Below are positions 28,921 to 48,231 of a DNA stretch of 64,000 nucleotides, piece after piece. Location of the stretch: positions 1 through 64,000 of the IMG/VR virus record IMGVR_UViG_3300021964_010186; one strand, written 5' to 3'. A program made the translations under genes and the position numbers. Position 1 is the first letter of the stretch. Every line of letters starts with the position of its first letter. The notes beneath the pieces are model-generated. The model was not told the DNA's origin. It searched no databases and worked only from the letters and a program-made list of their open reading frames with translations. The stretch comes from a virus.

Positions 28921-29069
28921 CAAAATTCCTTCTTTATTCCCACTGTTGGATTTTCAATACAACTGTCTTTGATCTCTTTCATAGTCTCCTTGTTGAGATC
29001 CACATTACAGCTCGCATTGGGTTTGATCCCGCAACCTACCATCAATAATAACACAATTAGGTATCTCAT
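28920..29069 (-). CDS. 49-residue predicted lipoprotein
   Basis: A short gene that fills the gap between the carbamoyltransferase and the epimerase, overlapping both (ATGA at its start, TGATG at its end). The product begins with a signal 'MRYLIVLLLMVGC' that has a lipobox-like MVGC, with Cys13 as the lipidation site, followed by a short hydrophilic part with two more Cys. It would be anchored in a host membrane. A possible role is superinfection exclusion, as for other small phage lipoproteins, but this is inference. Confidence 0.62.
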   Translation of the reverse strand: MRYLIVLLLMVGCGIKPNASCNVDLNKETMKEIKDSCIENPTVGIKKEF

Positions 29070-30538
29070 CCTAGTACTTTGACTCCATAACGGTTGGTAA
29101 ATGCTCGACCATCCTCCCTGTCATTGACTATAGGTTGACCTTTAATGTTTAGACTGGTGTTTAGGAGTATGGGGCAACCCGTCTGTTTTTTCCATTCTGT
29201 GAGCAGTGCGTGGAACCCTGGATTGTCCGTCTTACGCACCGTTTGAACCCTACTTGTAGAATCATGGTGTATGATAGCAGGAAACTCTTTACCATGCGTA
29301 CACGCCGCTGTAAATTGCATATAAGGGGTGTTTTTGACTGCTTTAGGCAGGGTGAAATACTGGTCTACATCCTCCTCTAGTATGGCTGGTGCAAACGGTC
29401 TGAACTGCTGTCTCTTCTTGATGCTGTTTACCAAATCCTTGATGTCATCACCCCTTGGATCTGCTAGTAATGATCTATTACCAAGCGCCCTTGGTCCGAA
29501 CTCCGCCCTACCACTGGCCACTCCCACCATCCGGTTTTCCTTTAGTTCCTTGATCAGTGCGTCCACAGGATACTCTCCATCTATGTTGTGTCCCAGGAAT
29601 GGGTGTTGCCAGTTCAGTCTCTTCTGCTCATGCGCGGCTATACAGCCCAGGCTCGATCCCGCGTCTCCAGGGTTGGGTATGATCCAGATGCTGTCGAACA
29701 GTCCCATGTCGGCCAGCACACGATTGGCGGCGCAGTTGAGCGCGACCCCGCCAGCGTACACCAGGTTCCTACTACCGTACTTGGATGCCCTAGACCACAG
29801 GTCCGCGAGGCACTCCTCCGTGACTGCCTGTATCGAGGCCGCGATGTCCATGACATCTGCGTTTGGTTCCCAATCGCTCAATCCACGGTGTAGGTTCTGT
29901 TTGAGTTTGAAGGGGGATTGATGCACGAAGTCGTCGTAGATCTGTTGCTTGTACTTGGGCGTTCCATACGCGGCCATGCCCATCAGAATGTATTCTTCCT
30001 CCGCTGGCTTTAACCCACAACGATGTGTGAACGCGGAATACAGTATGCCTATGCTGTGTGGATACCTTATGGTCTCTTTCCTGTGTATCCAACATTTGTC
30101 GCCCACTGATATCGAAACCGTGTCCCACTCACCTATGGCGTCCACCGTCAGTATGGTGGCACCCTCGTCCACGAACGGAGACGTGAAGTAGCCCGCCGCC
30201 GCGTGTGAGTCGTGGTGCTTTACGTACTCGTCTATCTTTATACCGAAGTGGTCCAAGTGCCACTGTGGCATCTCGGTGTAGCTCAGCGCCAGCCCGTACT
30301 GTCCAGCGTAGAACTGTCGGGTCTTCTTGAGCAGTGGCTTCTCGTAGTACACCACCTTGTCGAAGGGACCAAAGGTGTAGGCCTCGTCCACTATCCGCTG
30401 GTTGAGGTAGTGATCGTTCTTGACCTTGCTGTAACGCTCCGCGTGTGCGGCCCACAGGATCTCACCTATGCCCGAGCCGTAGTCCACCACCGCCATGGCG
30501 GCATCGTGATTCATGCAGTTGATCCCTAGTATCCTCAT
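29066..30538 (-). CDS. Carbamoyltransferase, NodU/CmcH family
   Basis: 490 residues, a little shorter than the usual 550-600. Start 'RILGINCMNHDAAMAVVDYG' and 'VKHHDSHAAAGYFTSPF' are the N-terminal metal/His motifs; 'GVALNCAANRVLAD' and 'GRAEFGPRALGNRSLLADPR' are the hallmark of the TsaD/YrdC-like part. It transfers a carbamoyl group to a hydroxyl, as in nodulation factors and antibiotics. In this operon the acceptor is probably a sugar. It overlaps the kinase-like gene by four bases. Confidence 0.92.
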   Translation of the reverse strand: MRILGINCMNHDAAMAVVDYGSGIGEILWAAHAERYSKVKNDHYLNQRIVDEAYTFGPFDKVVYYEKPLLKKTRQFYAGQYGLALSYTEMPQWHLDHFGIKIDEYVKHHDSHAAAGYFTSPFVDEGATILTVDAIGEWDTVSISVGDKCWIHRKETIRYPHSIGILYSAFTHRCGLKPAEEEYILMGMAAYGTPKYKQQIYDDFVHQSPFKLKQNLHRGLSDWEPNADVMDIAASIQAVTEECLADLWSRASKYGSRNLVYAGGVALNCAANRVLADMGLFDSIWIIPNPGDAGSSLGCIAAHEQKRLNWQHPFLGHNIDGEYPVDALIKELKENRMVGVASGRAEFGPRALGNRSLLADPRGDDIKDLVNSIKKRQQFRPFAPAILEEDVDQYFTLPKAVKNTPYMQFTAACTHGKEFPAIIHHDSTSRVQTVRKTDNPGFHALLTEWKKQTGCPILLNTSLNIKGQPIVNDREDGRAFTNRYGVKVLG

Positions 30539-30948
30539 TTCCTATCTCTTATATCTTGCATTATTAGAAAGGCCCACATGTCTGCTTCTTTGTGTGTGAC
30601 TCTAAAATCGTATTTTTTAGGTTCCTCGAACATCTTGTTTGTATCATCGAACCTTCCTTCTTTGATCGTGTCCATCCATACAGTGTAGTCTGCCTTGAAC
30701 TGTGATCTGGTCTCTTCCGTTGGGCACACGAAATCCGCCACCACGTTCCTTCCCCTGTCTACCGCTTCTTCTGCCATGGTCCACATACGCAGTGATTGTC
30801 TACGCCTGCCTTTATCTGAGAAGTCCCAGTCATCACACTGCTTCCTCACCTCGTCAGCGTTCAACCAGACCGCATTCATCCTCTGTGAGATTATCCTCGC
30901 CAGCGTGGTCTTTCCAGAACCCGGTAGTCCCATTATCAGTATCTTCAT
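30535..30948 (-). CDS. APS-kinase-like P-loop kinase
   Basis: 137 residues from the ATG at 30948, chosen because it begins the Walker A strand (GLPGSGKTT, 7-15) and overlaps the previous stop. 'VWLNADEVRKQCDDWDFSD' and 'GRNVVADFVCPTEETRSQF' match adenylylsulfate kinase (CysC), which makes PAPS, the sulfate donor. It is shorter than CysC (about 200), so the substrate could differ. Sulfotransferase-like genes at 12263 and 14351 would be consistent with PAPS use. Flanked by a carbamoyltransferase and a GNAT-like gene. Confidence 0.8.
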   Translation of the reverse strand: MKILIMGLPGSGKTTLARIISQRMNAVWLNADEVRKQCDDWDFSDKGRRRQSLRMWTMAEEAVDRGRNVVADFVCPTEETRSQFKADYTVWMDTIKEGRFDDTNKMFEEPKKYDFRVTHKEADMWAFLIMQDIRDRK

Positions 30949-31508
30949 GCCATCCTCAAAAATTTCTTGGTCCTGTTCAGGTACTCCCGCCACTGTTCCA
31001 GCGTGATGTCGTATTCGAAGTTCTGTGTGGTCTCATTCCGTCTCAGCAGTTTGGCACCGTTCTTGACGTGGAACCGTTCCGCCATCTCCGTGAGTGGAGA
31101 TAGTGTCACCAACCTGTCTATGTGGTGTTCACCCCTGTATTTCTTGTACACCTCGTTCAGTATGTGCTTGCCACCGCCCCGCTTACGTGCCCACACCGTG
31201 TAGGCCACCGCTATCCTGCCCACTATACTTGCCCTGTGGATCGCTTGGTTTGTGGCGTCCTGGCTCATGAGATCCATCTCCTCCACGGAGCGTGGCACCT
31301 CGTTGGTGAAGGCCAAACATATGATCGCGGCCGTGTCGCCCTCCTCATCCTTGAGTCCCAGCATCTTCCTGCCATGCGACCTACGGAACTCCACGGTGAG
31401 TTCGGGTCTAACCGGATCTTCTGAAACGTCTATATCATTCAACTCAACGAGATCAAATCGTGGATCTCGCTTGAACAGATCTTTGATTTTCTGTTTTATC
31501 TTTTCCAT
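30945..31508 (-). CDS. GNAT-like acyltransferase fold protein
   Basis: 187 residues. The central part ('TAAIICLAFTNEVP', 'IVGRIAVAYTVWARKRGGGK', 'RLVTLSPLTEMAERFHVKNG') looks like a GNAT-type acyl-CoA binding core, with 'NFEYDI' near the end. The N-terminus is basic ('MEKIKQKIKDLFKRDPRFD'). The acceptor is unknown; an amino sugar made by the genes downstream is a reasonable guess. It overlaps the kinase gene by an ATGA. Confidence 0.6.
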   Translation of the reverse strand: MEKIKQKIKDLFKRDPRFDLVELNDIDVSEDPVRPELTVEFRRSHGRKMLGLKDEEGDTAAIICLAFTNEVPRSVEEMDLMSQDATNQAIHRASIVGRIAVAYTVWARKRGGGKHILNEVYKKYRGEHHIDRLVTLSPLTEMAERFHVKNGAKLLRRNETTQNFEYDITLEQWREYLNRTKKFLRMA

Positions 31509-31511
31509 CTA

Positions 31512-31616
31512 TTACTTGTATATGAACGGGTCCTTCTTCTTGAGTTCCTTCAGTCTCTTCCTGTACTGTATCTCTTCTCTGATCTTGTACCAGAGACGTT
31601 TTATCCATCTTATCAT
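31512..31616 (-). CDS. 34-residue basic peptide
   Basis: A very short gene that fills the gap between 31508 and 31627, with GGAGAG upstream of its ATG. The product is strongly basic and aromatic ('MIRWIKRLWYKIREEIQYRK' ending 'DPFIYK'), an amphipathic helix that could lie on a membrane or bind nucleic acid. Only the ribosome binding site and the tight fit support it. Confidence 0.5.
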   Translation of the reverse strand: MIRWIKRLWYKIREEIQYRKRLKELKKKDPFIYK

Positions 31617-31626
31617 TTTTTCTCTC

Positions 31627-32412
31627 CTATATCAGTTTATTAAAGGTTGGTAACATCAATTGTACAGCATCCGCATGCGCTTGGTCAAGTGGATGTGTGG
31701 TGCCACGCGGGTAATCATTGAGCAGTGCCCATTGGTTAAAACCCATACAACGTTCGCCGAAGAAGAACCACTTGGAGAGATCCATCTCCGAGTGCAGGGC
31801 ATTCATGAAAGGATCCTTATTTTTGTGGTGGGTGAATTCTTGGTAAAAAAGACTGTTGTCCGCTAAGGTGAACATGTATGGAATATTCTTCTTCTCCAAG
31901 ATGTTCTGCAACCACGTGATGCTCTTCCAACTGAGGTATATCTCGTGGTATTGGCTGGCCGCGTATTTGTATATGGCCTCCGCAAAGTCTCGTACACCGG
32001 TTTCTTTAAAGAGTTCTTTCCTCACACGCCATTGCTCTTGCTGTGTCTCCGATCCCTGCATGGTCCTCAATGCCTCCTCGTTGCCGGCATTGGTGTCCCA
32101 TGGGGAGATGGATGCCCATCGGGTATCTTCCAGCACCTTGTGTCTGGGCATGGCCCAGTCATACCTGGAGAGGAGACTCCACATAACCACCACGCATTCC
32201 ACATCGGTGTTGTTGGCCACCGCGTTGAACACACGCCTCGCTATGGCTTGATTGCCCAGACCTCCAAACGCCGTGCACAGGTATTCGTGTCCTGATTCAC
32301 TGGAAAGTCCGTGCGCCCAGGTCTTCTTGGATGGTGTCTTTCCATCCACATCGTCGCTCAGCTCGTTGCCAAGTGTGAAACTGCATCCGCCCGCTATCAA
32401 TTTCTTAGTCAT
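31627..32412 (-). CDS. SGNH-like hydrolase
   Basis: 261 residues with block I 'IAGGCSFTLGNELSDD', block II 'AFGGLGNQAIARR' and a terminal 'THPLDQAHADAVQ' that supplies the Asp/His pair. It is likely an esterase or acyltransferase on a glycan. It overlaps the radical SAM gene at 32405 by eight bases. Related by layout to the genes at 11367 and 37602, though sequence identity outside the motifs is low by eye. Confidence 0.7.
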   Translation of the reverse strand: MTKKLIAGGCSFTLGNELSDDVDGKTPSKKTWAHGLSSESGHEYLCTAFGGLGNQAIARRVFNAVANNTDVECVVVMWSLLSRYDWAMPRHKVLEDTRWASISPWDTNAGNEEALRTMQGSETQQEQWRVRKELFKETGVRDFAEAIYKYAASQYHEIYLSWKSITWLQNILEKKNIPYMFTLADNSLFYQEFTHHKNKDPFMNALHSEMDLSKWFFFGERCMGFNQWALLNDYPRGTTHPLDQAHADAVQLMLPTFNKLI

Positions 32413-33571
32413 ATATCCTCAATACTTTATTTAAAAGAGGGAACACCTCACCAAAATTTTCCTTGCGGTACTGATCGGTCTGCAGGATCCTGGCCTTGCG
32501 TCGTTCTCGCATCTCGGCGGTGTCCCTGTCCGCGGCGTTCATGAACCTCAGCGTGGGCTGGAAGTCGGTCAGCATACTGTACCTGGAGTTGATGATGTTC
32601 TTGGCCTGCCGGGGCAGTGTCTGTACGTTGAAGTAGTCGGGGTCGAAGCAGGTGTTCACATAGAAGAACTTGGGCTGGAACTGTGCCACCCACAGGGCTA
32701 TCTTGGCCCAGTTGAAGACATTGAATATGGAAACTGTTGTGCAGATCTGGAAGTCCATGTTGGGGGTCCGTCTCTCCTTGAATTTGATCAGATTGGCATT
32801 GACTTGGCGCCAGTTGGCCGGGTGCCTCTGATACTCGAATGGCTCGCCCACGTCATCGATGCTGAACGCTATCTCCACGTGCTTGAAGTAACTCCATAGG
32901 TCAAATATCTCTATGGGAGGCAGTTGCGTGCCGTTGGTGTTGTAGTGTATGTCTATGTTCTTTGCATAGCCCTTCTCCACACAGTGCATTAATATCTTGA
33001 AATGGTCTTTTATCATGAACGGTTCGCCGCCTGTGAACTCGAAGTATTGCACGTGTTTTAGGTCTTCCTTGAGGTCCTCGAAGAACTTGGGATTGCGTTT
33101 CGGCCAGCCACCCTCACGTAAATTTTTAAGTGCGACTGGATTCTCTCCGTAGTCCAGTTCTTCCTGTGCCCACTTGCTGGAACTCCAGGAACCGCATATC
33201 CTACACTTGAGATTACACACGTTGCCCAACTTAAAGTCTATGAACTTCAGCGTTGGCTCGCTATCAGGTGTCCAATCCGTAAGACTTTTCTTCATTTTGT
33301 AAATCGAGTTCTGTCGCTTGGAAGTCTTGCCCGCATCTTCTTCCTGCCAACAGCTCTGGCAACCTTTTGGTCTTTCACCATTACGGAACTGTTCTCTCAG
33401 TTTCTCCATGTATTCTGTGTGCTGTATGGATTTAAGACTCTGGTTGTATACTTTCACCTCGGGCACACTTCCTTTATATAGACAGCAGGGTGATGCACCA
33501 CCGTTCACATCAACTTCTAGATGTGTCCATGGCAAAGGACACATGTTTGATTTTATATACTTGTCCACCAC
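32405..33571 (-). CDS. Radical SAM protein with N-terminal twitch/SPASM-like domain (1)
   Basis: 388 residues. The N-terminal cluster cysteines are C11 ('MCPLPWTHLEV'), C29-C30 and C71/C74 ('GCQSCWQEEDA'); the radical SAM motif C119xxxC123xxC126 is in 'NVCNLKCRICGSW', followed by 'FEFTGGEPFMIKDHF' and 'HYNTNGTQ'. The N-terminal Cys pattern resembles a SPASM/twitch auxiliary cluster placed before the barrel rather than after it. The substrate is unknown. The gene overlaps neighbours on both sides in the glycan operon. Confidence 0.88.
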   Translation of the reverse strand: MVDKYIKSNMCPLPWTHLEVDVNGGASPCCLYKGSVPEVKVYNQSLKSIQHTEYMEKLREQFRNGERPKGCQSCWQEEDAGKTSKRQNSIYKMKKSLTDWTPDSEPTLKFIDFKLGNVCNLKCRICGSWSSSKWAQEELDYGENPVALKNLREGGWPKRNPKFFEDLKEDLKHVQYFEFTGGEPFMIKDHFKILMHCVEKGYAKNIDIHYNTNGTQLPPIEIFDLWSYFKHVEIAFSIDDVGEPFEYQRHPANWRQVNANLIKFKERRTPNMDFQICTTVSIFNVFNWAKIALWVAQFQPKFFYVNTCFDPDYFNVQTLPRQAKNIINSRYSMLTDFQPTLRFMNAADRDTAEMRERRKARILQTDQYRKENFGEVFPLLNKVLRIYD

Positions 33572-34887
33572 TCTAATGCTTTCTTGTTTTTTGCTAAGAT
33601 TTTTTTGATATCTGTGCCACGGATACTATCTAGTCTCTCTATTTCCGCTTTGCCATCCTTCTGACCTTTTCTGTACAACTCTTCATCGTAAACTAACTCG
33701 TTGTTCCTTTTTTGTTTCTGCATTTCGTCTAACTGCGAAAAGAAATTGTTTAATTTTTTGTTTTTGTATTTGATTGTCTTTTCTCTAACATCATCTATTA
33801 TCTCAGTCATAATGTCATAAGGCATGAACAAAGGTGCCATAGCATTGTTATGGGAGAAGTTAAAAACTTGTTTAGTCAACAACTCGATGTTCAGCTCATT
33901 ACTTAACAGCACCATATTTTCCAAATCAAACAATCCCGGTAATGTAATAGTTAGGTCCAACTGCAGTCTTTGATTTTGCTCTTTTACGAATTTTAGTCCA
34001 TACTTTATATTTGTTAACCATTCATCATACTTTAGACCAGTTCTTATGTACTCCCCAATTTCCCCGGTACCATCTATTGAAGCACAAATTTGCCAATTAG
34101 GAAAGTACCTTAATATGTCGTCAAACAAGTTGTATTTGTAGAAATTTATCCTACTCATATTAGAATTGTACCTTGCTAATACTTTATCTTGGTAGCCAAG
34201 TTCTACAATCCTTTTCATCGCTTCCCAGTGTATCTTCCACATCAGAGGTTCTCCCCCACACCAGTATAGTTCGGTTATACGTTTTTGTTCAACCGCTTCT
34301 GTGAATTCCTTCACTACTTGCTGATCATGGAATAGTTCTAACTGTGCTTTGATGTCTTTCCTGCCCCATATCCTATATCGTTCGTAATCGCCCTTACCGT
34401 GTTTCTTATTCTCAGTTTCCCATGTACTACTCAGCATATCTCCACACATCCTACAACTAAAATTGCACAGATTAGAAAACCTATAATCAAAACTTTGTGT
34501 CTTCATTGTGGTGGCACCTGTTTCATCTGTGCTGTTGTACGCTTGTTCTATGTTGTTCCTATACAACCAATTAAAGTGTTGTCTGTACACCTGTTCATTT
34601 AACAATTTGTGATTGCACACAGTACACTGAGGGATTTCCTCACCTGCTAATAACTTTAACCGCACAGACTTCATATAGTCAGAATTCCAGTGCTGTTCTA
34701 ATGTGGTTAGATTCAATTTGTCATTATTACCTTTTGGGTCTATAGTGTCTATGTACTGTTTGAAGTTTTCGCTTGATTCTCTAGAACTACAACACAACCT
34801 TCGTTCCATCTGTGGCGACAGGTAAGTGTGCGTCCATGGTGCCATGCAGAATGTCTTGTTGCCCTCGTTAGGTTTAATTCTTTTCAT
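33553..34887 (-). CDS. Radical SAM protein with N-terminal twitch/SPASM-like domain (2)
   Basis: 444 residues. N-terminal Cys at 14 ('FCMAPWTHTYL'), 32-33 ('LCCSSRESSE') and in 'QCTVCNHKLL'; radical SAM motif 'NLCNFSCRMCGDM', then 'YWCGGEPLMWK'. Same architecture as its neighbours. Its composition is more AT-rich than the gene at 32405. It overlaps both adjacent radical SAM genes (19 and 14 bases), so the three are made as one block. Confidence 0.88.
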   Translation of the reverse strand: MKRIKPNEGNKTFCMAPWTHTYLSPQMERRLCCSSRESSENFKQYIDTIDPKGNNDKLNLTTLEQHWNSDYMKSVRLKLLAGEEIPQCTVCNHKLLNEQVYRQHFNWLYRNNIEQAYNSTDETGATTMKTQSFDYRFSNLCNFSCRMCGDMLSSTWETENKKHGKGDYERYRIWGRKDIKAQLELFHDQQVVKEFTEAVEQKRITELYWCGGEPLMWKIHWEAMKRIVELGYQDKVLARYNSNMSRINFYKYNLFDDILRYFPNWQICASIDGTGEIGEYIRTGLKYDEWLTNIKYGLKFVKEQNQRLQLDLTITLPGLFDLENMVLLSNELNIELLTKQVFNFSHNNAMAPLFMPYDIMTEIIDDVREKTIKYKNKKLNNFFSQLDEMQKQKRNNELVYDEELYRKGQKDGKAEIERLDSIRGTDIKKILAKNKKALEWWTSI

Positions 34888-36157
34888 ACAACTCCTGTAA
34901 TTCAGGAAACACCGTGAGCATGTCTTCGTCTCTAATCAAGTCTAATTTTTTCATTATGTCTTTGAACTGTCCTAAATCCTTGCTGTTGTTCCTCCTCATC
35001 ATGTAATCCAGACCTGATTCATAACCTTTTGTGGCCCTGGTCAGATGATCTAACGGTTTTAACCATTCAAGATGTTTCTCATATTTTTCTTTTACTTTCT
35101 GTTTGTATGATTCCGGCAATAGATCGATCCTCTGCGGGTATGGAAACTGTAACAGATTGAAATTGAAGTCCTGTGGTTTCAGTAATCCTTGATCTACCCA
35201 GTTCCTGTGGAAGTCTGGTATGTGTAGCGCATTAATCAAACCCACCGTTGAACTGATATAGAAATCCACTTGCGGACAAACCTGTAACATGCGTCGCCTA
35301 TTAGCCACAACTTCTTCCCATACGGTACCTTTACGCATAAGTTCACCTCGCTTACCTTCCGCATCGAGACTGGCGCCTATTGAAACCGAATCAAATTTGT
35401 TCCAAAGTTCGAGTATGTCTATGTCTTTAAATCTCGTCTTGGTGAAATTGGTATTATATATCAATCTGACATGATACATCTTTCGCCTGTCTAATTCCTT
35501 CAATATCCTGTAGTGCTCTTCCATTATAATGGGCTCCCCACCTGCGAAATAGAACTGTTCCACATGATCGAACTGATCCAACATCTGTGTCCATATGTCA
35601 TCACTGCTTCTACCTACACGCATGACCTTTGCGTGATTAGGTGGTAATCCTGTAAGTTTCTTGTGATCCTCATACCAATTGGAACTGAACCAAGTGCCAC
35701 AACTCCGGCAGGCCAGATTACACAGGTTGCTGAACCTTATGTCCCAATACTTGATCACAAAGTCAGCCGTGCCATCTGGCTGAGTATTATCTACCATTCC
35801 TATGTTGTGTCCAAAATGTTTGTTTGAACTCAATCTCAAACTGAAGAATCCTGATTGTTCCTGATCATAGCATTTGGTACATTGTTTGCTGGTTTTGTTT
35901 GCCAACATATTGTTTCTGATACCTTTCATTGTATCGTTATTGAACACTTCCACCATGGAATTCTTGTTCAGATCGCCGACTGGATACTTGTCTAAAGCAA
36001 AGCAACAAGGATAGGCCCTACCATCGGGGAAAGCATGTATATGCAACCATGGCATCATACAGAAGGTATCACTGTCTATAAGCAATTCTTTTTGCCTATC
36101 TGTCATGTCCTTGATCTTTAGTTTCTCGGGTTCTTTAGCTCCGTAATCATATGTCAC
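34874..36157 (-). CDS. Radical SAM protein with N-terminal twitch/SPASM-like domain (3)
   Basis: 427 residues with an extra 30-residue lead. C33 ('FCMMPWLHIHAFPDG'), C51-C52 ('AYPCCFALDKYP') and 'QCTKCYDQEQ' form the N-terminal cluster; 'NLCNLACRSCGTWFSSNWY' is the radical SAM motif and 'FYFAGGEPIIMEEHY' the GGE motif. It is closest in motif wording to the protein at 33553, suggesting they arose by duplication. Overlaps both neighbours. Confidence 0.88.
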   Translation of the reverse strand: MTYDYGAKEPEKLKIKDMTDRQKELLIDSDTFCMMPWLHIHAFPDGRAYPCCFALDKYPVGDLNKNSMVEVFNNDTMKGIRNNMLANKTSKQCTKCYDQEQSGFFSLRLSSNKHFGHNIGMVDNTQPDGTADFVIKYWDIRFSNLCNLACRSCGTWFSSNWYEDHKKLTGLPPNHAKVMRVGRSSDDIWTQMLDQFDHVEQFYFAGGEPIIMEEHYRILKELDRRKMYHVRLIYNTNFTKTRFKDIDILELWNKFDSVSIGASLDAEGKRGELMRKGTVWEEVVANRRRMLQVCPQVDFYISSTVGLINALHIPDFHRNWVDQGLLKPQDFNFNLLQFPYPQRIDLLPESYKQKVKEKYEKHLEWLKPLDHLTRATKGYESGLDYMMRRNNSKDLGQFKDIMKKLDLIRDEDMLTVFPELQELYEKN

Positions 36158-37490
36158 GATACCATTCTCCTATAATCGGAAAGGTCTTCTCAAAATCCTT
36201 TCCACTGCGTTTGTCATACTGACTGTAGAATGCTTTGAAATCTTGTTGTAGTTTGTCCTGTGTGGCCGCACCCACATGTGGTGTTTTCACCACGTCCAAG
36301 TAATCGATTAATCTCTGTGTATGATCTATTTCCATGGGGTGTAACCATTTCTCATTACTAGTTAAGAACTTTTCTAATCCTCCTTTAAATTTGTTCCTTA
36401 GTTCATCTGGTAGCACTAGTGGTGATTGGAAACTTGGAAATCTCAATATGTTCAAAGTGAAGTTGATCGACGGTCCATACACCTTGCCTGCATTTTTCAA
36501 CCAGACTATCTTTTCGAGAAATTCTGGCAGTGATTCTAAACACAACGCATTGATGGTCGACATATTGTGTATCTCTGACGGTATCTTATCCACCATCATG
36601 TGTAAAACACGACTGAACCAGTCACCGTAGTCGAGACCGTCCCTTATGTATTCCGCTTGAGAGAATGTTGCTTCACAACTTGTGTACAGATGAAAGTTTT
36701 TGAATCCTTTTAATTTACGTTTGAACCTATCAATTATACTATCCTTGGCTCCGAGGTTTGAATTAATTGCTATATTCATATTCGGATTCATTTTATCACC
36801 TTGTGTTTCTATCCAGTCCAATAACCTCCATAGGTTTGGAGACATCATTGGTTCTCCTCCCGTGATTCTCAATTCATTTAGTGTCTTATGCAAATCAGAT
36901 TCCCACCATCTGTAAAATGCTTCCACGTAGGGATTGGTTTCATCTTTCTTGTAGGGCTCTGCACTGTTGTGTGGATGAGTAAAATGATTTCGGCCATCGG
37001 ATTTCAATCCAGTGTATGGCCCTTTTTGCTTGATGTTATTTGCCCAGGTTGAACTAAACGCAGGATTACAATATGTACAAGCAAAATTACACGTTCTATC
37101 AAATGCTATCTCCAGTGTTTTTAAATTCACATCTTCGTTGTGATCTAATTTGTAAGCCGTGTCTAGCTCGTTGTTAGTGAATATCTTTGATTTGTACACC
37201 CTGTCACTGATATTATCCCTGTGTATGTCCTCAATCTTCCAACAATATTCACAGCCTGCCGGTCTTTCACCATTCTGCATTTGCCTACGTTGTTCTTTCT
37301 TCTGTGGTGTGTTGTGCAGAAGTTTTGGATTGGACTGAACGGCAATAGGATCAACCTTGTGTGGCAACGGATGGTGACAGCTCGTGGTCATCCCCGAGCC
37401 CAACCATATTGTGGCGTTGTACCACTTGGCCCCACAGAAACTTGCTGACTTTGTATCTAATATCTTTTTCTTATATTCGAGATCGTCCAT
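36147..37490 (-). CDS. Radical SAM protein with N-terminal twitch/SPASM-like domain (4)
   Basis: 447 residues. C19 ('FCGAKWYNATIWLG'), C38 with two His ('TTSCHHPLPHKVD'), 'GERPAGCEYCWKIEDIHRD' and the core 'RTCNFACTYCNPAFSSTW', then 'LRITGGEPMMSPNL'. A close sister of the protein at 39193, sharing 'QRRQM..GERPAGC.YCWK' and the 'C.HP..H' element, which the other members lack. The His-rich element may add a ligand to the auxiliary cluster or bind another metal. Overlaps the small gene upstream by 20 bases. Confidence 0.88.
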   Translation of the reverse strand: MDDLEYKKKILDTKSASFCGAKWYNATIWLGSGMTTSCHHPLPHKVDPIAVQSNPKLLHNTPQKKEQRRQMQNGERPAGCEYCWKIEDIHRDNISDRVYKSKIFTNNELDTAYKLDHNEDVNLKTLEIAFDRTCNFACTYCNPAFSSTWANNIKQKGPYTGLKSDGRNHFTHPHNSAEPYKKDETNPYVEAFYRWWESDLHKTLNELRITGGEPMMSPNLWRLLDWIETQGDKMNPNMNIAINSNLGAKDSIIDRFKRKLKGFKNFHLYTSCEATFSQAEYIRDGLDYGDWFSRVLHMMVDKIPSEIHNMSTINALCLESLPEFLEKIVWLKNAGKVYGPSINFTLNILRFPSFQSPLVLPDELRNKFKGGLEKFLTSNEKWLHPMEIDHTQRLIDYLDVVKTPHVGAATQDKLQQDFKAFYSQYDKRSGKDFEKTFPIIGEWYRDI

Positions 37491-37605
37491 CTTTCCCCTT
37501 GAAATAATCTTTCAGTTTATTGTATTCGTGTTCCGGACAGAGCGTGTCACTCTCGAACATCACGTCCTTGACCCAGTGATAATGTGCTATCGTCTTCTTG
37601 CTCAT
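37471..37605 (-). CDS. 44-residue basic peptide
   Basis: The ATG at 37605 overlaps the SGNH gene stop (ATGA) and is preceded by AAAGGATGA; a longer start at 37638 is possible. The product is charged and aromatic ('MSKKTIAHYHWVKDVMFESD' and a Lys-rich tail). Its end overlaps the radical SAM gene start by 20 bases. It may be a small accessory protein of the neighbouring enzyme. No family recognised. Confidence 0.6.
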   Translation of the reverse strand: MSKKTIAHYHWVKDVMFESDTLCPEHEYNKLKDYFKGKDGRSRI

Positions 37606-38216
37606 GAATTCATCCTTTGGTATACCTTTTCTGCCCATTGTTGATTTTGTTCTACGGTCATGTGATTGATTGTGCCAATACCCCAACCGTCCTTGACGAT
37701 TGCCCCCTTGCTGAATGCAAATATACTTTCGTCTATGACCGTGCCCGTCTCTAATTTGATACCGGCATCCTTGCCCGCCGTTTCAAAAGGTCGGAAACTC
37801 CACATCTGCACGATGGTTTTATCTTCGAGCGTTGATAACACGTTCTGATCATAATACTTCAATGCGTATTCGTAGGCCAACTCGTCTTTGTCATAATCGT
37901 GTAGATGTATCCAGTACTGTTCCAATGCCTTGTAAAGGTTTGGATCAACACCATCCAACGGTTGTGTGTTCGCACTTAAGGTGTATCTTGGGTGGTAAAG
38001 CCTGTATGGCTCAGTCCAACAGAATATCGAAACATCTGGGACGCTGTCCTGTTCTATTAGTCTGTTGAAACGCATAAACACACTCCAGATACTGCGTCCA
38101 GGTTCACCAAACCATCTTATCCTAGAACACCCTAGTTTCTCCTGTAGGATGTTGCACCAGCTCTCGGGTTGATTGCTGGCACAGAAACTGTCTCCAAAAA
38201 ATCCTATTGTCCTCAT
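37602..38216 (-). CDS. SGNH-like hydrolase
   Basis: 204 residues with block I 'TIGFFGDSFCASNQ', block II 'WFGEPGRSIWSVFMRF' and a C-terminal 'GTINHMTVEQNQQWAEKV' with the catalytic His. The size fits GDSL/SGNH esterases. It overlaps genes on both sides by four bases, directly between a GT-like gene and a radical SAM gene. Target unknown; O-acyl groups on a glycan are the usual substrate type. Confidence 0.72.
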   Translation of the reverse strand: MRTIGFFGDSFCASNQPESWCNILQEKLGCSRIRWFGEPGRSIWSVFMRFNRLIEQDSVPDVSIFCWTEPYRLYHPRYTLSANTQPLDGVDPNLYKALEQYWIHLHDYDKDELAYEYALKYYDQNVLSTLEDKTIVQMWSFRPFETAGKDAGIKLETGTVIDESIFAFSKGAIVKDGWGIGTINHMTVEQNQQWAEKVYQRMNS

Positions 38217-39196
38217 TGTGTAAACCTAAACAAGTCAACTTTCTTGCTCCCTTTTGTTTTGATTAGGAATTCCCTGTTCCAGTCAGTTCTTTCGAAATGT
38301 TGTTTGTTGTGCTCTAACACATCATTCAATCGTGCATAGACGGACTTAGGATCCTGTACACTGAGTTGATGCATAGAATCAAATACCATGTTGAATCTCT
38401 TATCCCTTTCCTTTTCGTTGTCATAACTTTCATCTATGACAGAGGAAAATGTTTTAAAGCCCAAATTACGTAATGCCCGAAGTTGTCCTTGAGATCCAAA
38501 AACAACAAAGGGACGTTTAGCCACAATCGGTTTAGCGGTCTTTTCCGTGAAAACGCCAAAGTCTTTATGCCACGTTGTTTCTATGAATGCAGTATAGAAG
38601 GTGTTGTTGTAGATTTCAGGATCTATAAGATCACTGTATCTTAATGTGCTCTTCCATTTTTCTTCTATGGTTTCCGCCGTGTGATTCACAGGCACTTTCA
38701 CATGTTTACTCCATCTGCCTTGTCTTGGATCGTCCCTGTAGTATGTCGTTAACACTTGTTCATTCACAGGATGACCCTTTAGTGTATCAAACAAAATGTC
38801 CTTGCCGGTATCTGTGCCACCCATTAAAAAATCAAATTTCTTTAGTTTGTTGGATTTATCTTTGACGTCAATACAGTTTTCAAGCAATCCTCTACACATG
38901 TCGTTCTTGATGTAAAGGTCCTGTCCCTCATGAAACATGTTATTAAGAAATTTCAATGGTAGTCCTTGTTGATTGGCAAAATTACAACCGTAATAGTGAA
39001 TGTTTGATTTATGGATGTTTGCTTTTATTAAATCCACAAATGTCCTGTGCACGCCATCCTCTTCATACACGAAACCCGGCTCATACAGATTCACAATTAT
39101 GTTAGCGTAATTTCTATGTTCTTGATCAATCAATTTTTGAAGTCTTTCACCCATGTCCGCTCCACTGGTGTATATGTTAATCAGTAAAGTGCTCAT
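38213..39196 (-). CDS. Fucosyltransferase/GT10-like phage protein
   Basis: 327 residues. The C-terminal part has 'AFIETTWHKDFGVFTEKTAK' and 'KRPFVVFGSQGQLRALRNLG', followed by 'SVIDESYDNEKERDKRF'. This resembles the donor-binding half of GT10-type glycosyltransferases and a protein type seen in marine phages, from memory. No DxD motif is evident. The N-terminal half is not recognised. It is embedded in the operon with four-base overlaps on both sides. Confidence 0.55.
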   Translation of the reverse strand: MSTLLINIYTSGADMGERLQKLIDQEHRNYANIIVNLYEPGFVYEEDGVHRTFVDLIKANIHKSNIHYYGCNFANQQGLPLKFLNNMFHEGQDLYIKNDMCRGLLENCIDVKDKSNKLKKFDFLMGGTDTGKDILFDTLKGHPVNEQVLTTYYRDDPRQGRWSKHVKVPVNHTAETIEEKWKSTLRYSDLIDPEIYNNTFYTAFIETTWHKDFGVFTEKTAKPIVAKRPFVVFGSQGQLRALRNLGFKTFSSVIDESYDNEKERDKRFNMVFDSMHQLSVQDPKSVYARLNDVLEHNKQHFERTDWNREFLIKTKGSKKVDLFRFTQ

Positions 39197-40563
39197 GCGT
39201 TCCTACACTCCTCCCAGAATTCCGCCATCTCAGGGAACGTGTTGAGGAACCTGGTCAGGCGCCTGCGATCGTGTTCCGAGAAAAAAGCGTAAAAATTACG
39301 TTTGTGCTGTGCGCTCGCGTCAGCGTTCTCGCGCCAGTATGCGAGATTGCGTCGCATCTTCTGGATCTCGAAGTCCTTGAATATGTGTAGCCCGTTTGAC
39401 TCGCCGGAGTTGGCCTCCATGTACTTGATGTTGTCTTCGTGTATGCTCTGGTAACTCTCGGGTAATAATGTTATCTGTTGCCATGCGGGTTGGCGTAGCA
39501 GTGGCACGTCAAACCAAACACGCTGATAAGTTTTACTGTATCGCTTACGCAGATCCAGTATCTTTTCCAACAATCGGTCCATGCTGGTTATACTGAGGTT
39601 GTTGTAGGTCACTATGAAGGTTATGCTGTTACGCACTGGTATGCGATCCAGGAACTCCTCCACGTTCGCCATCATGCGATCGAAGTCCAATCCATGCCTG
39701 ATGTACTCGGCGCGTTTGCCGAACGCATCCACGCTGACGAACTGCATCATGTGTTCCACCTTCTCCTCCATGCAGATATTCTGCATCATGTTGAAGTACT
39801 TGTCCTTGAGTTTTGGGTCGGCCGGACACATGTTGGATGTTACGTTGAGATGTAGGTCCTCTTTGGGATGGTCAATGATGTACTGTAGCACCCGGTAGGT
39901 GTTGACATCCATCATGGGCTCCCCACCGGTCATGCGGAAGTGCTTGAGGTTCTTGTACAGTTCTGGCCACCATCGCCAGAAAGCGTCAACGTATGGGTTG
40001 GACTCCCTGTTGGGTATTGGACTCCTGCGTCCCTGGAAGTGCTCGGGAGCGTTGTGCGGTGGCGTGGTGGGGTACTCCCCATAGCGTTCCGTCTCCTTGC
40101 CCCAGGTGGTGGAGAACTGTGGCGAACAGTAACTACACTTGAAGTTACAAGCGTGGCTGAAGTTGACCTCCACGTACCTGGGCATCCATGTCTCAGACAA
40201 TGGATTCTTTACAATTTCTTCAAAGTCCTGCATGGCCCATGGCTCTCCCGAACGGTAGTGACGATCACTCATCTCACCGGCGTCCTCCAGTTTCCAGCAG
40301 TAACTACAGCCCGCGGGCCTCTCACCCGCCAGCATCTGTCGTCTTTGCTTCAACTTCTCGTTGGTGTTGTGAAGTGCCGTGGGATTGCTATGTAGTTTTG
40401 TCGCGTCAATCTCGTGCAGGGGTGGATGGTAGCAACTGTTGGTCAGTCCCGTTGGCAGGTGCAGTGACACCTGGTTCCACTTGGCCAGGCACATGGTGGG
40501 CGAAACTGTGGCCAGTTTCTGCTCGGCCTTCAGCGCATCATTCTTGTAGTCACTTGTACTCAC
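39193..40563 (-). CDS. Radical SAM protein with N-terminal twitch/SPASM-like domain (5)
   Basis: 456 residues. C25 ('TMCLAKWNQVSLHLP'), 'NSCYHPPLHEIDA', 'ERPAGCSYCWKLEDAGE', then 'HACNFKCSYCSPQFSTTWGK' (CxxxCxxC) and 'FRMTGGEPMMDVNTY'. A close relative of the protein at 36147. It is richer in G+C than the AT-leaning sisters at 33553-37490, so the copies have probably evolved apart for some time or been acquired separately. Confidence 0.88.
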   Translation of the reverse strand: MSTSDYKNDALKAEQKLATVSPTMCLAKWNQVSLHLPTGLTNSCYHPPLHEIDATKLHSNPTALHNTNEKLKQRRQMLAGERPAGCSYCWKLEDAGEMSDRHYRSGEPWAMQDFEEIVKNPLSETWMPRYVEVNFSHACNFKCSYCSPQFSTTWGKETERYGEYPTTPPHNAPEHFQGRRSPIPNRESNPYVDAFWRWWPELYKNLKHFRMTGGEPMMDVNTYRVLQYIIDHPKEDLHLNVTSNMCPADPKLKDKYFNMMQNICMEEKVEHMMQFVSVDAFGKRAEYIRHGLDFDRMMANVEEFLDRIPVRNSITFIVTYNNLSITSMDRLLEKILDLRKRYSKTYQRVWFDVPLLRQPAWQQITLLPESYQSIHEDNIKYMEANSGESNGLHIFKDFEIQKMRRNLAYWRENADASAQHKRNFYAFFSEHDRRRLTRFLNTFPEMAEFWEECRNA

Positions 40564-41449
40564 GATCCTGCACTCCTTTATTACTGTGTTGTGGCATGAC
40601 GAACTTGAAGAACCTGCTGTCTTCCACGCTGTAATCTGCCACTGGTATGTCTAATCTCTGCCTAATGCTTTCCCCATAAGTGTTGAGGTCTGCGTGTACA
40701 TTCTGTTCATCCAGGTAGTTTGCAAACACCTCGTGCATACGATCTATGTCACTGATGCCCATTGCCCATTCGTGGCTCTCTACCGAGGTCTGGTAACACC
40801 CTATCCTGGCTCCCAACATAGCCCATAGTCCATTATCCACATCCGCGCCCACTGTCATCCACGTGGTCAGTATCCTCAGGTTCTGTGGCCAGATGTTTTT
40901 GAATTCGCGTGGAGGTATCGGCACTCCCTTGTTGGTGCACATCTTGACGCCCTCCCTGTAGCCCGCAGTGAATGCCTGGTATTTGTCACCGTTGATTACA
41001 GTGGTGCTGTAGCAGTTGTGTAGGTTCTCGTGTGGTACGCCCCAACAGAAATCCAGTTTGTTTTCCTCGCTGTCAGCGTTCTCGTGTGTCTTCATAGCAA
41101 GGCAGGTCTCCTTGTGCCAGCCCACCAGTCCACCATTACCGTACACCAGTCCGTTGATGTTGTTCTTGGCCCTCCACCTGTGCACTGCCTTGGGATCGGT
41201 CTTTGACCAGTCCAGGGTCTGTATTAGGAAGCTCTCATCTATTATGTTGTCACCGTCCACGCTGATGAAGAAATCGGTCTCCGCCAGTTCCGCCGCGGCC
41301 TTGTGTGCGGAATCGAAACCCACCACACCATCCACACGCTTGGCCCATGGCACTTTGTTCTTGAGGTCAGCCCAGTTCTGCTCCTTGTTGGGTTCACGGA
41401 AACTGATGTACACGAAATCCAGGTCGCTTACTCTGACTCTATCTGCCAT
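40550..41449 (-). CDS. GT-A-type glycosyltransferase-like protein
   Basis: 299 residues; GGAGGAGAGG precedes the ATG. 'LDFVYISFREPNKEQNWADL', 'VPWAKRVDGVVG', 'TDFFISVDGDNIIDE' with a DGD metal motif, and 'NNINGLVYGNGGLVGWHKE' indicate a GT-A nucleotide-sugar transferase. It is the paralogue of the second half of the protein at 26679. The acceptor is unknown. It overlaps the radical SAM gene downstream by 14 bases. Confidence 0.7.
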   Translation of the reverse strand: MADRVRVSDLDFVYISFREPNKEQNWADLKNKVPWAKRVDGVVGFDSAHKAAAELAETDFFISVDGDNIIDESFLIQTLDWSKTDPKAVHRWRAKNNINGLVYGNGGLVGWHKETCLAMKTHENADSEENKLDFCWGVPHENLHNCYSTTVINGDKYQAFTAGYREGVKMCTNKGVPIPPREFKNIWPQNLRILTTWMTVGADVDNGLWAMLGARIGCYQTSVESHEWAMGISDIDRMHEVFANYLDEQNVHADLNTYGESIRQRLDIPVADYSVEDSRFFKFVMPQHSNKGVQDREYK

Positions 41450-41733
41450 GCCTCTCCTCCCTGCATTATTCCGTTGGGCCAGTGTATGTCGCCGTGCTCG
41501 AAACTGTAGCCCTTTTCCGCCTTTACAAGAACACTGAATCGTGTTTTAGGCTTTGGTGGTGGTCTCAGTTCGAACCGAGTGGGTGACACCCAGTGGTAAG
41601 ACTGCTCACCTTTTCTCATAATTTCTTTCTTTTTATCTAGACTGACCACAACCTCCCTTCCTTCTATACAGACAGTATGCTGTTTCTCAACCACAGGCGG
41701 CATAGACTGCAGAGCCTTAAGAAGTTCTGACAT
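41428..41733 (-). CDS. Unknown 101-residue phage protein
   Basis: Starts at 41733, inside the preceding glycosyltransferase gene (17-base overlap), rather than at far upstream codons in the same frame. It has a helical start ('MSELLKALQSMPPVVEKQHT') and a beta-rich rest ('CIEGREVVVSLDKKKEIM', 'ELRPPPKPKTRFSVLVKAEK'). No domain recognised; its context suggests an accessory part of the glycosylation operon. Confidence 0.68.
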   Translation of the reverse strand: MSELLKALQSMPPVVEKQHTVCIEGREVVVSLDKKKEIMRKGEQSYHWVSPTRFELRPPPKPKTRFSVLVKAEKGYSFEHGDIHWPNGIMQGGEAWQIESE

Positions 41734-42511
41734 AAATCTCCTTGTCGTGATAGTGCCATGGCCTGTTGATCCTTCTCTCACCGAGATAGATCGCATCGCC
41801 GTTCTGGTTGGGATAGAGGTAGTTGTTGTGATCACCCACCCTGTCGAGACGGTTGACGGCGGGCTTATGGTGTAGGAACTTGAACCACTCGTAGTCGATC
41901 AGGTGCTTGTTGGTGGGGTCCATCATCCTATAGGCCAGTGCGAACACCACGTCAGTGCTGGGATAATCATCATGACAGTTTATCAGCATCGTTGTCTTGA
42001 CCTCTCGCCAGTTCATCGTGATGTGCCTGGCCGTGTCAAAAAACTTTTGTGCGGTTTTGCTTTTCCTGAAGTACATCAGTCCGTTGTATATGTTGGGTAG
42101 GCAATTCCTCACGAACAGTGCCCTGTAGGGAGTGTGTTTGACTATTTCATCCTTGTAGTTCCTACAGTCAACGCTGAACACCATGTCGTGTTGCCACAGG
42201 TGATGCCACCACCAATCGGTGTTGTCAGTCCATAACACATCGGCCTCTAACTTGATCGTGTGGGTGAAAGGTGTCATGTGGAACGCCTTGTGTTCGTTGG
42301 CCCACTTGATCTCGTGTTCTGAGCTGTCATCCTGTTTTAACACTTTCACGATATCCACCGCGGGGTGTTCAAACCTGCTGTTCTCATCCGTGACCACACA
42401 AATTTGATTTTCTCTGTTATATCTCTTGATACTTTCTGCGAGTTTTATGCTTAACCCAACGTAATCTGTCTTGCTGTTGTTCTGTGCGAACCATAGGAAT
42501 CCCTTAGACAT
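41717..42511 (-). CDS. Glycosyltransferase, GT8-like
   Basis: 264 residues from the ATG at 42511. 'LWFAQNNSKTDYVGLSIKLA', 'VVTDENSRFEHPAVDIVKVL', 'FTHTIKLEADVLWTDNTDWW' (an acidic patch in place of DxD) and 'YNGLMYFRKSKTAQKFFDTA' are typical of the GT8/GT24-type GT-A fold. It is related in layout to the next upstream gene (42504-43253). Overlaps neighbours by 8 and 17 bases. Confidence 0.72.
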   Translation of the reverse strand: MSKGFLWFAQNNSKTDYVGLSIKLAESIKRYNRENQICVVTDENSRFEHPAVDIVKVLKQDDSSEHEIKWANEHKAFHMTPFTHTIKLEADVLWTDNTDWWWHHLWQHDMVFSVDCRNYKDEIVKHTPYRALFVRNCLPNIYNGLMYFRKSKTAQKFFDTARHITMNWREVKTTMLINCHDDYPSTDVVFALAYRMMDPTNKHLIDYEWFKFLHHKPAVNRLDRVGDHNNYLYPNQNGDAIYLGERRINRPWHYHDKEIYVRTS

Positions 42512-43253
42512 CGGCCAACTCCTTGTTGAGCACATGCACGTCTTGGTGTTCAGTGTAGTTGATCTGGTCGTTGCACTGCCAGGCGATGCCGGTGTCGGTA
42601 ATTTTGATAACCTTGCACCCGGGTGGCAGGGTGGCTATACTCAAGGGCATGGTGTCGTACGTGATGAATCCGTTGGCCTGCTGTAGTGCTATAGCGAAAG
42701 CGTAATCGTTCCTGAAGTTCCTGGCGCGTATCCTGTACATCTCGTTGAAGTAATGGTAATATTGCTTGATGTACTTCACCGTGTCAAAAATGCGTTTAGC
42801 CTTTAGACCTTTCTTGAAGACGAACACAGTGGCCCACACCATGTCTATCATGCTCCACTTCCGCATGTCAAAACTGCCAACGTTGGTGAGGTCATGTGCG
42901 TCCTTGGAAACAAGGAAGTCATAATCAGTGTCCAGGAACTGCCTGAGGTTGTCAGTGAAAGGGAAGTAGTCGATGTCCATCACCAGCGTGACCTCATAGG
43001 GTGACAGTTCATAGGCCATGTGCCTGTCCACGTTGCGCCATTCAGATCCGTTCTTTGTGTTCCCCAGCTCGGGTTCGATGAACTTGTAGTTGATGAACCC
43101 CAGGGGTTTTAATTTTTTAAACGTGTCGTAGTCCGTGACCACCGTGATTTCCAGTTGTAGATTCCGTTTGATGAGTGCGACACAACGCTCCAGTATCCTG
43201 TGATATTGGACTTCTGTCGTGTCAAAACAAAATAATAGTACTCCCTTGGTCAT
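42504..43253 (-). CDS. Glycosyltransferase-like protein with DxD motif
   Basis: 249 residues. 'GVLLFCFDTTEVQYHRILER', 'LEITVVTDYDTFKKLKPLG' and 'EVTLVMDIDYFPFTDNLRQF' with a DID metal motif, then 'ATVFVFKKGLKAKRIFDTVK'. A GT-A-type transferase. It starts on the last base of the preceding stop. Together with the genes at 41717 and 40550 it gives three adjacent transferases, consistent with stepwise assembly of a short glycan. Confidence 0.72.
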   Translation of the reverse strand: MTKGVLLFCFDTTEVQYHRILERCVALIKRNLQLEITVVTDYDTFKKLKPLGFINYKFIEPELGNTKNGSEWRNVDRHMAYELSPYEVTLVMDIDYFPFTDNLRQFLDTDYDFLVSKDAHDLTNVGSFDMRKWSMIDMVWATVFVFKKGLKAKRIFDTVKYIKQYYHYFNEMYRIRARNFRNDYAFAIALQQANGFITYDTMPLSIATLPPGCKVIKITDTGIAWQCNDQINYTEHQDVHVLNKELADV

Positions 43254-43570
43254 CAGTCACCCCTTTTTTCAAATGTCTTTGACATCTGATGGTACGAACT
43301 AATGGCCTCCTGGTTTCTTTCTATCAATGTTTGTAGGAATCCTAAGGGATCCGTGATCTCCACGGGATTTTGATTTGTGTCCAAAACAAAAAACTTGTCT
43401 GCGGTTTCCTTCAGTGTCCTCACCAGACAGATGGTCTCAGCGTCCGCACGGAAGATGTGTTCATTGTACACCACCACCATTCGTGAGTGTGCCTTCTCCA
43501 AGGCGTTGCGCTTGGCAACCGCTATGTCATAGGATAAGTCTGATTGTTTTTTTAGTTCGCCAATGTCCAT
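43253..43570 (-). CDS. Unknown phage protein, first gene of the minus-strand operon
   Basis: 105 residues from the ATG at 43570. Helical start ('MDIGELKKQSDLSYDIAVAK'), then 'HSRMVVVYNEHIFRADAETI' and a final helix. The promoter -10 box ends six bases before this ATG, so the mRNA is predicted to be leaderless; a start 15 bases upstream overlaps the -10 box and is rejected. Function unknown; being first in the operon, it might be regulatory. Confidence 0.72.
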   Translation of the reverse strand: MDIGELKKQSDLSYDIAVAKRNALEKAHSRMVVVYNEHIFRADAETICLVRTLKETADKFFVLDTNQNPVEITDPLGFLQTLIERNQEAISSYHQMSKTFEKRGD

Positions 43571-43576
43571 ACCACA

Positions 43577-43605
43577 ATTATACAATAATTATGGTGTGTG
43601 ATCAA
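43577..43605 (-). promoter_or_regulatory. Sigma70-type promoter for the minus-strand glycan/radical SAM operon
   Basis: On the minus strand, TTGATC (43605-43600) and TATAAT (43582-43577) are 17 bases apart, and the ATG at 43570 follows six bases after the -10 box. It lies between the last tail-fibre gene and the operon, so the operon can be read independently of the late structural genes. Confidence 0.7.
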
Positions 43606-43621
43606 CCTGGTAAAAAAATTA

Positions 43622-44608: not shown

Positions 44609-44612
44609 AAAT

Positions 44613-46241: not shown

Positions 46242-46426
46242 TAACTATCGTCCCTTATTGCTATCAGTATACTGACATCACCCAATGTGTCTATTAGAGT
46301 TTCTACTAAAAGTTTTTTACCAGGATGATTCTTTATTGAATCCTCTAGAGTTTTTATCTCTCCTGCTGTCAACACGGTTTCTATGTTGGCGTTTATGTAG
46401 TCGGACACATCATTCTTGGTGATCAT
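46241..46426 (-). CDS. Small phage protein between fibre genes
   Basis: 61 residues from the ATG at 46426, one base inside the preceding stop. A helical acidic protein ('MITKNDVSDYINANIETVLT', 'LIDTLGDVSILIAIRDDS'). It and the gene at 46426-46653 form a pair between the Gly-rich and the 542-residue fibre genes, and might be small fibre chaperones. That is a guess from position. Confidence 0.68.
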   Translation of the reverse strand: MITKNDVSDYINANIETVLTAGEIKTLEDSIKNHPGKKLLVETLIDTLGDVSILIAIRDDS

Positions 46427-46653
46427 TACTCGTTGCTCCCGTTCTTGGCCAATCTCTCCACCATGATAGTGTCTCCGACTAGTTTCTGTAGTATGACCGC
46501 TATCTCTGGTGACATCCAATTCTGCATAAGTCCTATCCTAGTGGCGGAATAACCCTCTGCCGCTGGTTCTTCCCAATAGGTGACATGGGCATCGTCATCG
46601 CCCTTTTCCCACTGGTTGTTCAGGTATTCTGTTACTTGTTCCTTGGTTGCCAT
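46426..46653 (-). CDS. Small phage protein between fibre genes
   Basis: 75 residues: 'MATKEQVTEYLNNQWEKGDD', a Trp/Glu-rich middle and 'PEIAVILQKLVGDTIMVERL'. There is no Shine-Dalgarno sequence; a TAAATA motif ends five bases before the ATG. It overlaps the next gene by one base. Possibly a late, fibre-associated protein; unrecognised. Confidence 0.7.
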   Translation of the reverse strand: MATKEQVTEYLNNQWEKGDDDAHVTYWEEPAAEGYSATRIGLMQNWMSPEIAVILQKLVGDTIMVERLAKNGSNE

Positions 46654-46658
46654 ACTTG

Positions 46659-48227: not shown

Positions 48228-48231
48228 GGGA

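Follow-up and report, generated by a model that had tools for sequence, protein, structure and literature searches.

Six N-terminal-twitch radical SAM genes in a virus record

The DNA analyzed here (the window) is a 64,000-nt part, positions 1 to 64,000, of the 79,123-base virus record IMGVR_UViG_3300021964_010186, and it contains a cluster of genes for radical S-adenosylmethionine (SAM) proteins. An initial annotation, made from the sequence alone, had described five such genes in about 8 kb and a sixth at 18848, with CxxxCxxC cores and SPASM/twitch-like cysteines ahead of the barrel. All six open reading frames (ORFs) proved intact, five on the minus strand within 32405-40563 and one on the plus strand at 18848-19972. 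Each protein contains exactly one CxxxCxxC motif, which starts at residue 102-146 and is preceded by four further cysteines (C ... C ... CxxC). When the proteins were classified against N-terminal-twitch families, as had been proposed, all six matched NF033640 (NCBIfam "twitch domain-containing radical SAM protein", hereafter N_Twi), a family whose hallmark is a twitch-type cluster domain preceding the radical SAM barrel. Scores of 225-412 bits exceeded the curated cut-off of 170 bits, and the alignments were near full-length (model positions 1-3 to 396-398 of 398). The Pfam model PF04055 by itself misses or scarcely reaches several of the six, and the Pfam SPASM model PF13186 matched the N terminus of two, at 32405 (residues 11-75) and 34874 (residues 33-97).

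The five clustered minus-strand genes are referred to as paralogues A to E: A (39193-40563; 456 aa; NF033640 327.6 bits, E 1.2e-97; N-terminal Cys C25/44/86/89), B (36147-37490; 447 aa; 290.2 bits, E 2.6e-86; C19/38/80/83), C (34874-36157; 427 aa; 411.6 bits, E 3.6e-123; C33/51-52/93/96), D (33553-34887; 444 aa; 306.8 bits, E 2.5e-91; C14/32-33/88/91), and E (32405-33571; 388 aa; 373 bits, E 1.9e-111; C11/29-30/71/74). The sixth, paralogue F (18848-19972, plus strand; 374 aa; 225.1 bits, E 1.5e-66; C6/23/59/62), is a separate locus that is less frequent among relatives, being present in four viral-contig relatives, with more copies in contigs G031 and G1198. A seventh radical SAM gene of the window, at 13437-14336, is QueE-like and lies outside the N_Twi family. 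When 112 family members were aligned, the core cysteines C146/C150/C153 were invariant and the N-terminal four essentially so; the full seven-cysteine pattern was present in 109 of them.

We modeled paralogue C with AlphaFold2. An alignment of 28 close orthologues only had produced a poor model (predicted local distance difference test [pLDDT] 68) and was replaced by one of 71 sequences covering all paralogues, which yielded a pLDDT of 87.8 and a predicted template modeling (pTM) score of 0.86. The predicted structure contains a radical SAM barrel and an auxiliary domain. A Foldseek search of the PDB returned 25 matches at E <= 1e-3, every one a radical SAM enzyme; among them were the SPASM enzymes CteB, anSME, SkfB, and SuiB, viperin-like enzymes, GDGT-MAS, and the sugar-nucleoside enzyme BlsE. 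Many uncharacterised proteins from uncultured phages and KVP40-type Vibrio phages were matched as well. The structure prediction that the initial annotation had called for thus points to a SPASM-type radical SAM enzyme. The window proteins share with CteB, anSME, SkfB, SuiB, and the sugar enzyme BtrN the combination of a barrel and an auxiliary [4Fe-4S] domain, and match the first four in fold; however, the auxiliary domain is C-terminal in all five of these enzymes, whereas in the window proteins it precedes the barrel. We conclude from sequence and model that the cluster encodes five distinct N-terminal-twitch radical SAM enzymes, each with a [4Fe-4S] SAM motif and a second four-cysteine site, both being predicted cluster sites.

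The five-gene unit is conserved, and its enzymes are exchanged, among relatives

A scan of viral contigs yielded 36 loci, 35 of which contain the cluster region. Several of these 35 contigs are near-identical, which leaves about 27 distinct relatives, the set used for the ratio of nonsynonymous to synonymous substitution rates (dN/dS). Gene order is identical in all 35: glycosyltransferase (GT)-like genes, A, a variable slot, B, C, D, E, and an SGNH-like gene, followed by a carbamoyltransferase gene wherever the contig extends far enough. Because the five-gene order recurs in every related contig, a chance cluster is excluded; and since the radical SAM genes are clustered, the scattered distribution unrelated to glycan genes that the initial annotation had named as evidence against it was not obtained. 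Orthologues of A occur in 35/35 contigs at 70-92% identity. Whole records hold 5 to 12 family members, with at least five copies in 35 of the 36. The DUF2201 gene at 21171 served as an anchor independent of the cluster: all further contigs with sufficient downstream DNA have the radical SAM cluster at this site, and the few anchored contigs that lack it all stop short of the site. This gene, which is matched in hundreds of phage records, belongs to a pair (MoxR-type AAA ATPase and DUF2201 metallopeptidase/VWA; 20065-22412) that ranks among the best-conserved pairs of genes in the clade.

PHROG searches of locus L007 identified T4-superfamily markers (baseplate wedge/hub, gp46/47-type recombination nuclease, and late sigma factor), by which the virus belongs to an uncultured, T4-like marine clade. 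The view that so many radical enzymes are unusual in a phage holds for cultured phages, where they are nearly absent, but not within this clade, where they are universal; moreover, 12 radical SAM genes together with an A-type Fe-S carrier have already been published for the T4-like marine viral genome TARA_ERS488813_N000010 (Nishimura et al. 2017, PMC5332604). Among our relatives, contig G026 (172 kb) likewise encodes an A-type carrier (L092:17196-17531, PF01521 E 2.9e-16), in keeping with a large Fe-S load in this virus.

In phylogenetic analysis, each of A to E formed one clade (SH-aLRT 99-100), with A and B as sisters. Recent duplication of a single gene is ruled out, A to E being old, separate clades. 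Paralogue C grouped with chromosomal bacterial homologues and is the nearest to them of the phage paralogues (support 83, quick tree). Values of dN/dS across A-E were 0.03-0.08 (A 0.08, B 0.05, E 0.04), and that of the carbamoyltransferase was equally low; by this measure A to E are each under strong purifying selection. These data bear on the idea that the genes are selfish cargo, captured repeatedly from hosts and serving no joint pathway, to which we give very little credence. The copy number of 5-12 and the single extra copies scattered between plus-strand genes would suit it, but five separate paralogues in strict order and under purifying selection, each an old clade, would not; nor would the absence of the family from the genomes around a Pelagibacter metagenome-assembled genome (MAG) described below. 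The extra single N_Twi genes themselves, found in G031 (L086, L087), G1198 (L204, L205), and G1201 (L206) between conserved plus-strand genes, adjoin TGT-like, GT, GalE, and FolE genes; the window lacks them at the matching sites, and they resemble mobile cargo carried one gene at a time.

Orthologues of D fall into two groups by identity to the window protein, about half at 50-57% and the others at 66-90%, while the adjacent E keeps 75-91% identity in contigs where D varies. From this pattern, D is an allele-swapping position. Paralogue B is replaced in one contig, L010 (50% identity). The slot between A and B holds different genes, or none, in relatives. A whole-set exchange is seen in contig G1204 (L202/L203), which retains the flanks (carbamoyltransferase at 78%, the GT-like genes, a 43622-like gene, and the 44613 tail genes) but encloses roughly twelve different radical SAM genes between them; six of these match Pfam Radical_SAM and fall outside A-E. 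The G1204 island also contains a UDP-sugar dehydrogenase, an FAD oxidoreductase, an SGNH-like gene, and a gene judged methyltransferase-like by sequence alone, as well as a 47% homologue of the 38213 protein from the window's variable slot.

The cluster is linked to glycan genes and lies behind the tail fibres

The genes described in this paragraph, from the tail fibres to the GFO/IDH/MocA oxidoreductase, are on the minus strand. Upstream of A are tail-fibre and virion structural genes with PHROG matches (44613-51154), a probable virion structural gene between them and the module (43622-44608; 36-66% conserved, with only a weak PHROG match), a small helical protein at a conserved position (43253-43585), a GT-like protein with an invariant DxD (D93, D95; 42504-43253), a second GT-like protein homologous to it (41717-42535; cross-match E 6e-11), a small protein at a conserved position (41428-41835; about 100 aa from an internal ATG), and a GT-like protein with an invariant DGDN (40550-41449). 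The last is homologous to a further GT-like protein encoded at 26679-28007 (profile matches E 9e-25 / 1e-18). The variable slot holds a putative SGNH-like gene with an FGDSF motif (37602-38216) and a gene for a 327-aa protein with no family match (38213-39196). Beyond E comes a second SGNH-like gene with invariant GGCSFT ... GxGN ... DxxH (31627-32412), which has no Pfam or PDB match. Then follow a P-loop kinase of APS kinase / AAA_33 type (30535-30993; Pfam), a NodU/CmcH-type carbamoyltransferase (29066-30538; PF16861 E 5.5e-54, PF02543 E 3e-43; 68-93% identity in relatives), an NAD-dependent sugar epimerase/dehydratase (27961-28923; PF01370 E 2.6e-43), a DegT/DnrJ/EryC1 sugar aminotransferase (25616-26710; PF01041 E 4.4e-96), and a GFO/IDH/MocA oxidoreductase (24745-25626; PF01408 E 2.1e-8, PF02894 E 2.5e-6). 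The described interleaving with SGNH hydrolase and glycosyl-type genes therefore stands as a linkage to glycan genes, through the Pfam-verified carbamoyltransferase, DegT, epimerase, and GFO/IDH genes, while the SGNH and GT identities come from motifs. On the other side of the tail-fibre genes, between these and the baseplate genes, a giant structural protein of >4,000 aa is encoded at 51892-64000 and on into L007; this location is that of VrlC in pelagimyophages.

No transmembrane segment was predicted in any module protein, unlike at the bacterial loci described below. Alignment of the conserved small ORFs 41428 and 43253 revealed no repeated or Cys-rich core as in peptide precursors. We thus rejected maturation of a ribosomally synthesized and post-translationally modified peptide with an adjacent precursor, no precursor-like ORF having been found at the locus.

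A related proposal is that the N_Twi enzymes act in SPASM fashion as protein or peptide maturases on tail-fibre side chains, the sugar genes having a separate role. Its attractions are that the top PDB folds (CteB, anSME, SkfB, and SuiB) are peptide-modifying enzymes and that the N_Twi genes lie directly behind the tail genes. We nevertheless consider it improbable: besides the missing precursor-like small ORF, viperin and BlsE, whose substrates are nucleotides and sugar nucleosides, match too, and the carbamoyltransferase/SGNH partners accompany the family in the chromosomal relatives and in the single-cell marine virus AG-345-D19, where these tail genes are missing. In AG-345-D19, two SGNH-like genes, a carbamoyltransferase gene, and an N_Twi gene are consecutive.

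The minus-strand genes from the tail fibres to 24745 overlap or almost touch (widest gap 142 bases), and no terminator-like site was found between genes on this strand at 28000-47000. At the start of the unit leading into the module is a T4-type late-promoter core, ATAAATA (44659-44665, minus strand), with 43622 as the first gene after it and no other copy in this unit. The window as a whole has two matches, neither of them on the plus strand; the strict form TATAAATA had 0 matches. In 398 kb of the relatives' cluster DNA, ATAAATA occurs 13 times in sense and 0 times in antisense orientation, and each of the 13 sense copies precedes the 43622 orthologue by 54-59 nt. A T4-type late sigma factor is encoded in the genome (PHROG). 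Given the position of ATAAATA, the gene overlap, and the late sigma factor, the module would be read late, together with the tail genes, from a promoter predicted from its motif.

Related genes occur in bacterial polysaccharide loci and in other viruses

Chromosomal N_Twi genes were detected (E <= 1e-25) in 18 of 294 other genomes of the class of a Flavobacterium MAG. They adjoin carbamoyltransferase, GDSL hydrolase, GT4, epimerase, UbiA, and Asn synthase genes and a sulfotransferase-like gene. The Bacteroidota polysaccharide loci L100, L102, L107, and L108 combine N_Twi with carbamoyltransferase, GDSL, GT, and epimerase genes, as the phage does; but these loci have mostly one to three N_Twi genes plus membrane proteins, whereas the phage module is all soluble. 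L107, L108, L110, and L115 (Bacteroidota class) contain several divergent N_Twi genes, each about 500 aa long, those of L107 and L108 adjoining Asn synthase and GDSL or GT genes; these four loci may offer a cultivable system for testing the family.

That chromosomal relatives occupy surface-polysaccharide-type loci would suit another explanation, in which the module alters the host surface polysaccharide (O-chain or glycolipid) from the cytosol via the host export machinery and blocks superinfection; the authors of the pelagimyophage study read GTs of the same region as host surface modifiers (PMC7029224). However, the phage module contains no flippase, polymerase, lipid-carrier transferase, or any membrane protein, and the unit appears late and co-transcribed with the tail genes, while exclusion would be more useful early. 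We rate this, the principal rival to decoration of a virion protein, as possible though rather unlikely.

A profile built from all six paralogues proved too divergent to scan the genome collection with, and the paralogue C profile was used instead; it detected only phage contigs inside MAGs. Cluster-bearing contigs (L044-L048) were found in five MAGs labeled Betaproteobacteria, Verrucomicrobia, Pelagibacter, Rickettsiales, and Flavobacterium. These labels differ, which points to mis-binning, and the MAGs hence give no host information. Searching for tRNA genes as a host hint found none. Apart from the phage contigs of the Pelagibacter MAG itself, the N_Twi family is absent from 288 genomes of that MAG's class and 296 of its order, and we therefore rejected capture from an alphaproteobacterial host.

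The cultured Vibrio phage KVP40 (L117, 126000-146000) has three N_Twi-like genes in the vicinity of QueC, NadV, and a GT1-type gene; these three score much lower than the window proteins. The window encodes a GTP cyclohydrolase I (7741-8454; PF01227 E 4e-47), a Vut_1/YhhQ-type transporter (10660-11310; PF02592), the QueE-like protein (13437-14336; PDB QueE E 6e-4), and a TGT/DpdA-like protein recognized by sequence alone, with no family match (521-1966). These likely 7-deazaguanine genes suggest modified phage DNA. The radical SAM enzymes could in principle serve such hypermodification, of phage DNA or tRNA, given the FolE, QueE-like, and Vut_1 genes of the genome, the relatives' extra N_Twi copies inserted among these genes, and the KVP40 N_Twi-like genes beside QueC. 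We hold this to be quite improbable, as the five-gene cluster lies on the opposite strand in the late tail-fibre unit and the chromosomal relatives are in polysaccharide loci.

A candidate late module for decorating the phage's own virion

The initial annotation had proposed a multistep radical modification of a sugar, peptide, or virion component. The glycan linkage is confirmed; a sugar substrate and several steps are what we infer from it, and for a peptide no precursor candidate was found. The reading we favor, and hold at about even confidence, is that the locus is a cytosolic module for making glycans, expressed late and sited in the host-recognition region behind the tail fibres, with a virion protein as its most likely acceptor. 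Each enzyme would split SAM to a 5'-deoxyadenosyl radical, which would take hydrogen from a position, different from enzyme to enzyme, of a (nucleotide-)sugar or an already attached sugar; the electron would be handed to the N-terminal auxiliary cluster, and the outcome would be dehydrogenation, dehydration, or epimerization, as with BtrN-type sugar enzymes. The sugars would be attached by the GT-like proteins, acylated or trimmed of acyl groups by the SGNH-like proteins, and capped by the carbamoyltransferase, the likeliest acceptor being a product of the same late unit, either a tail-fibre protein or some other protein of the virion. Part of the radical SAM set (D, B) or all of it (G1204) can be exchanged, and with such swapping the decoration would vary like a serotype. 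More tentatively, and with rather less confidence than in the module itself, we propose that these phages place on their own virion, at the tail fibres, a sugar produced through several radical SAM reactions in succession, and that they swap whole enzyme sets as a serotype-like system of host recognition, N_Twi being a carbohydrate-modifying family shared with bacterial loci.

Several observations weigh against the favored reading. The solved relatives closest in fold include the peptide-modifying enzymes CteB, anSME, SkfB, and SuiB, and the assignment of a sugar substrate rests on gene context. The GT-like and SGNH-like neighbors were recognized by motif after profile searches of Pfam, PHROG, and PDB: 31627 and 37602 have no Pfam match to SGNH/GDSL models and are named from conserved motifs, and 40550, 41717, 42504, and 26679 have no Pfam, PHROG, or credible PDB match to any GT, although 40550 and 42504 carry DxD motifs. 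The late promoter is a motif, and ATAAATA is absent in 4 of 16 testable relatives. Finally, host O-chain modification is the published interpretation of the GTs of this region (PMC7029224), and the same data allow it.

That T4-like marine viruses can carry many radical SAM genes is already known (PMC5332604, PMC7029224), and NCBIfam includes the protein family. All six window proteins match NF033640 N_Twi_rSAM over its full length, with the auxiliary-cluster cysteines ahead of the barrel, but this family has no assigned function, and the window presents five distinct paralogues as one conserved unit. TARA_ERS488813_N000010, which shares the A-type carrier with G026, is presented in the available text of its report as an Fe-S gene load, without cluster architecture, paralogue set, or glycan link (PMC5332604). 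The pelagimyophage host-recognition cluster is a variable island by the tail fibres with GTs, deoxysugar genes, and radical SAM cassettes; those cassettes are described as variable, whereas the window's clade has a conserved five-enzyme core (PMC7029224). The cultured HTVC008M carries carbamoyltransferase, methyltransferase, and UDP-sugar dehydrogenase genes together but has no N_Twi match. In a literature search of incomplete coverage, we found no report of the five-paralogue unit, the late-promoter context, the whole-set exchange, or the parallel with bacterial polysaccharide loci.

If the favored reading is correct, widespread ocean viruses devote about 7 kb, and in one relative as much as about 25 kb, to oxygen-sensitive radical chemistry for a surface sugar, and a large uncharacterised radical SAM family would gain its first functional setting and be a source of new sugar chemistry. 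It would also provide a mechanism by which marine T4-like phages vary their recognition surface, and it makes the puzzle of a dozen radical SAM genes and Fe-S carriers in such phages directly testable.

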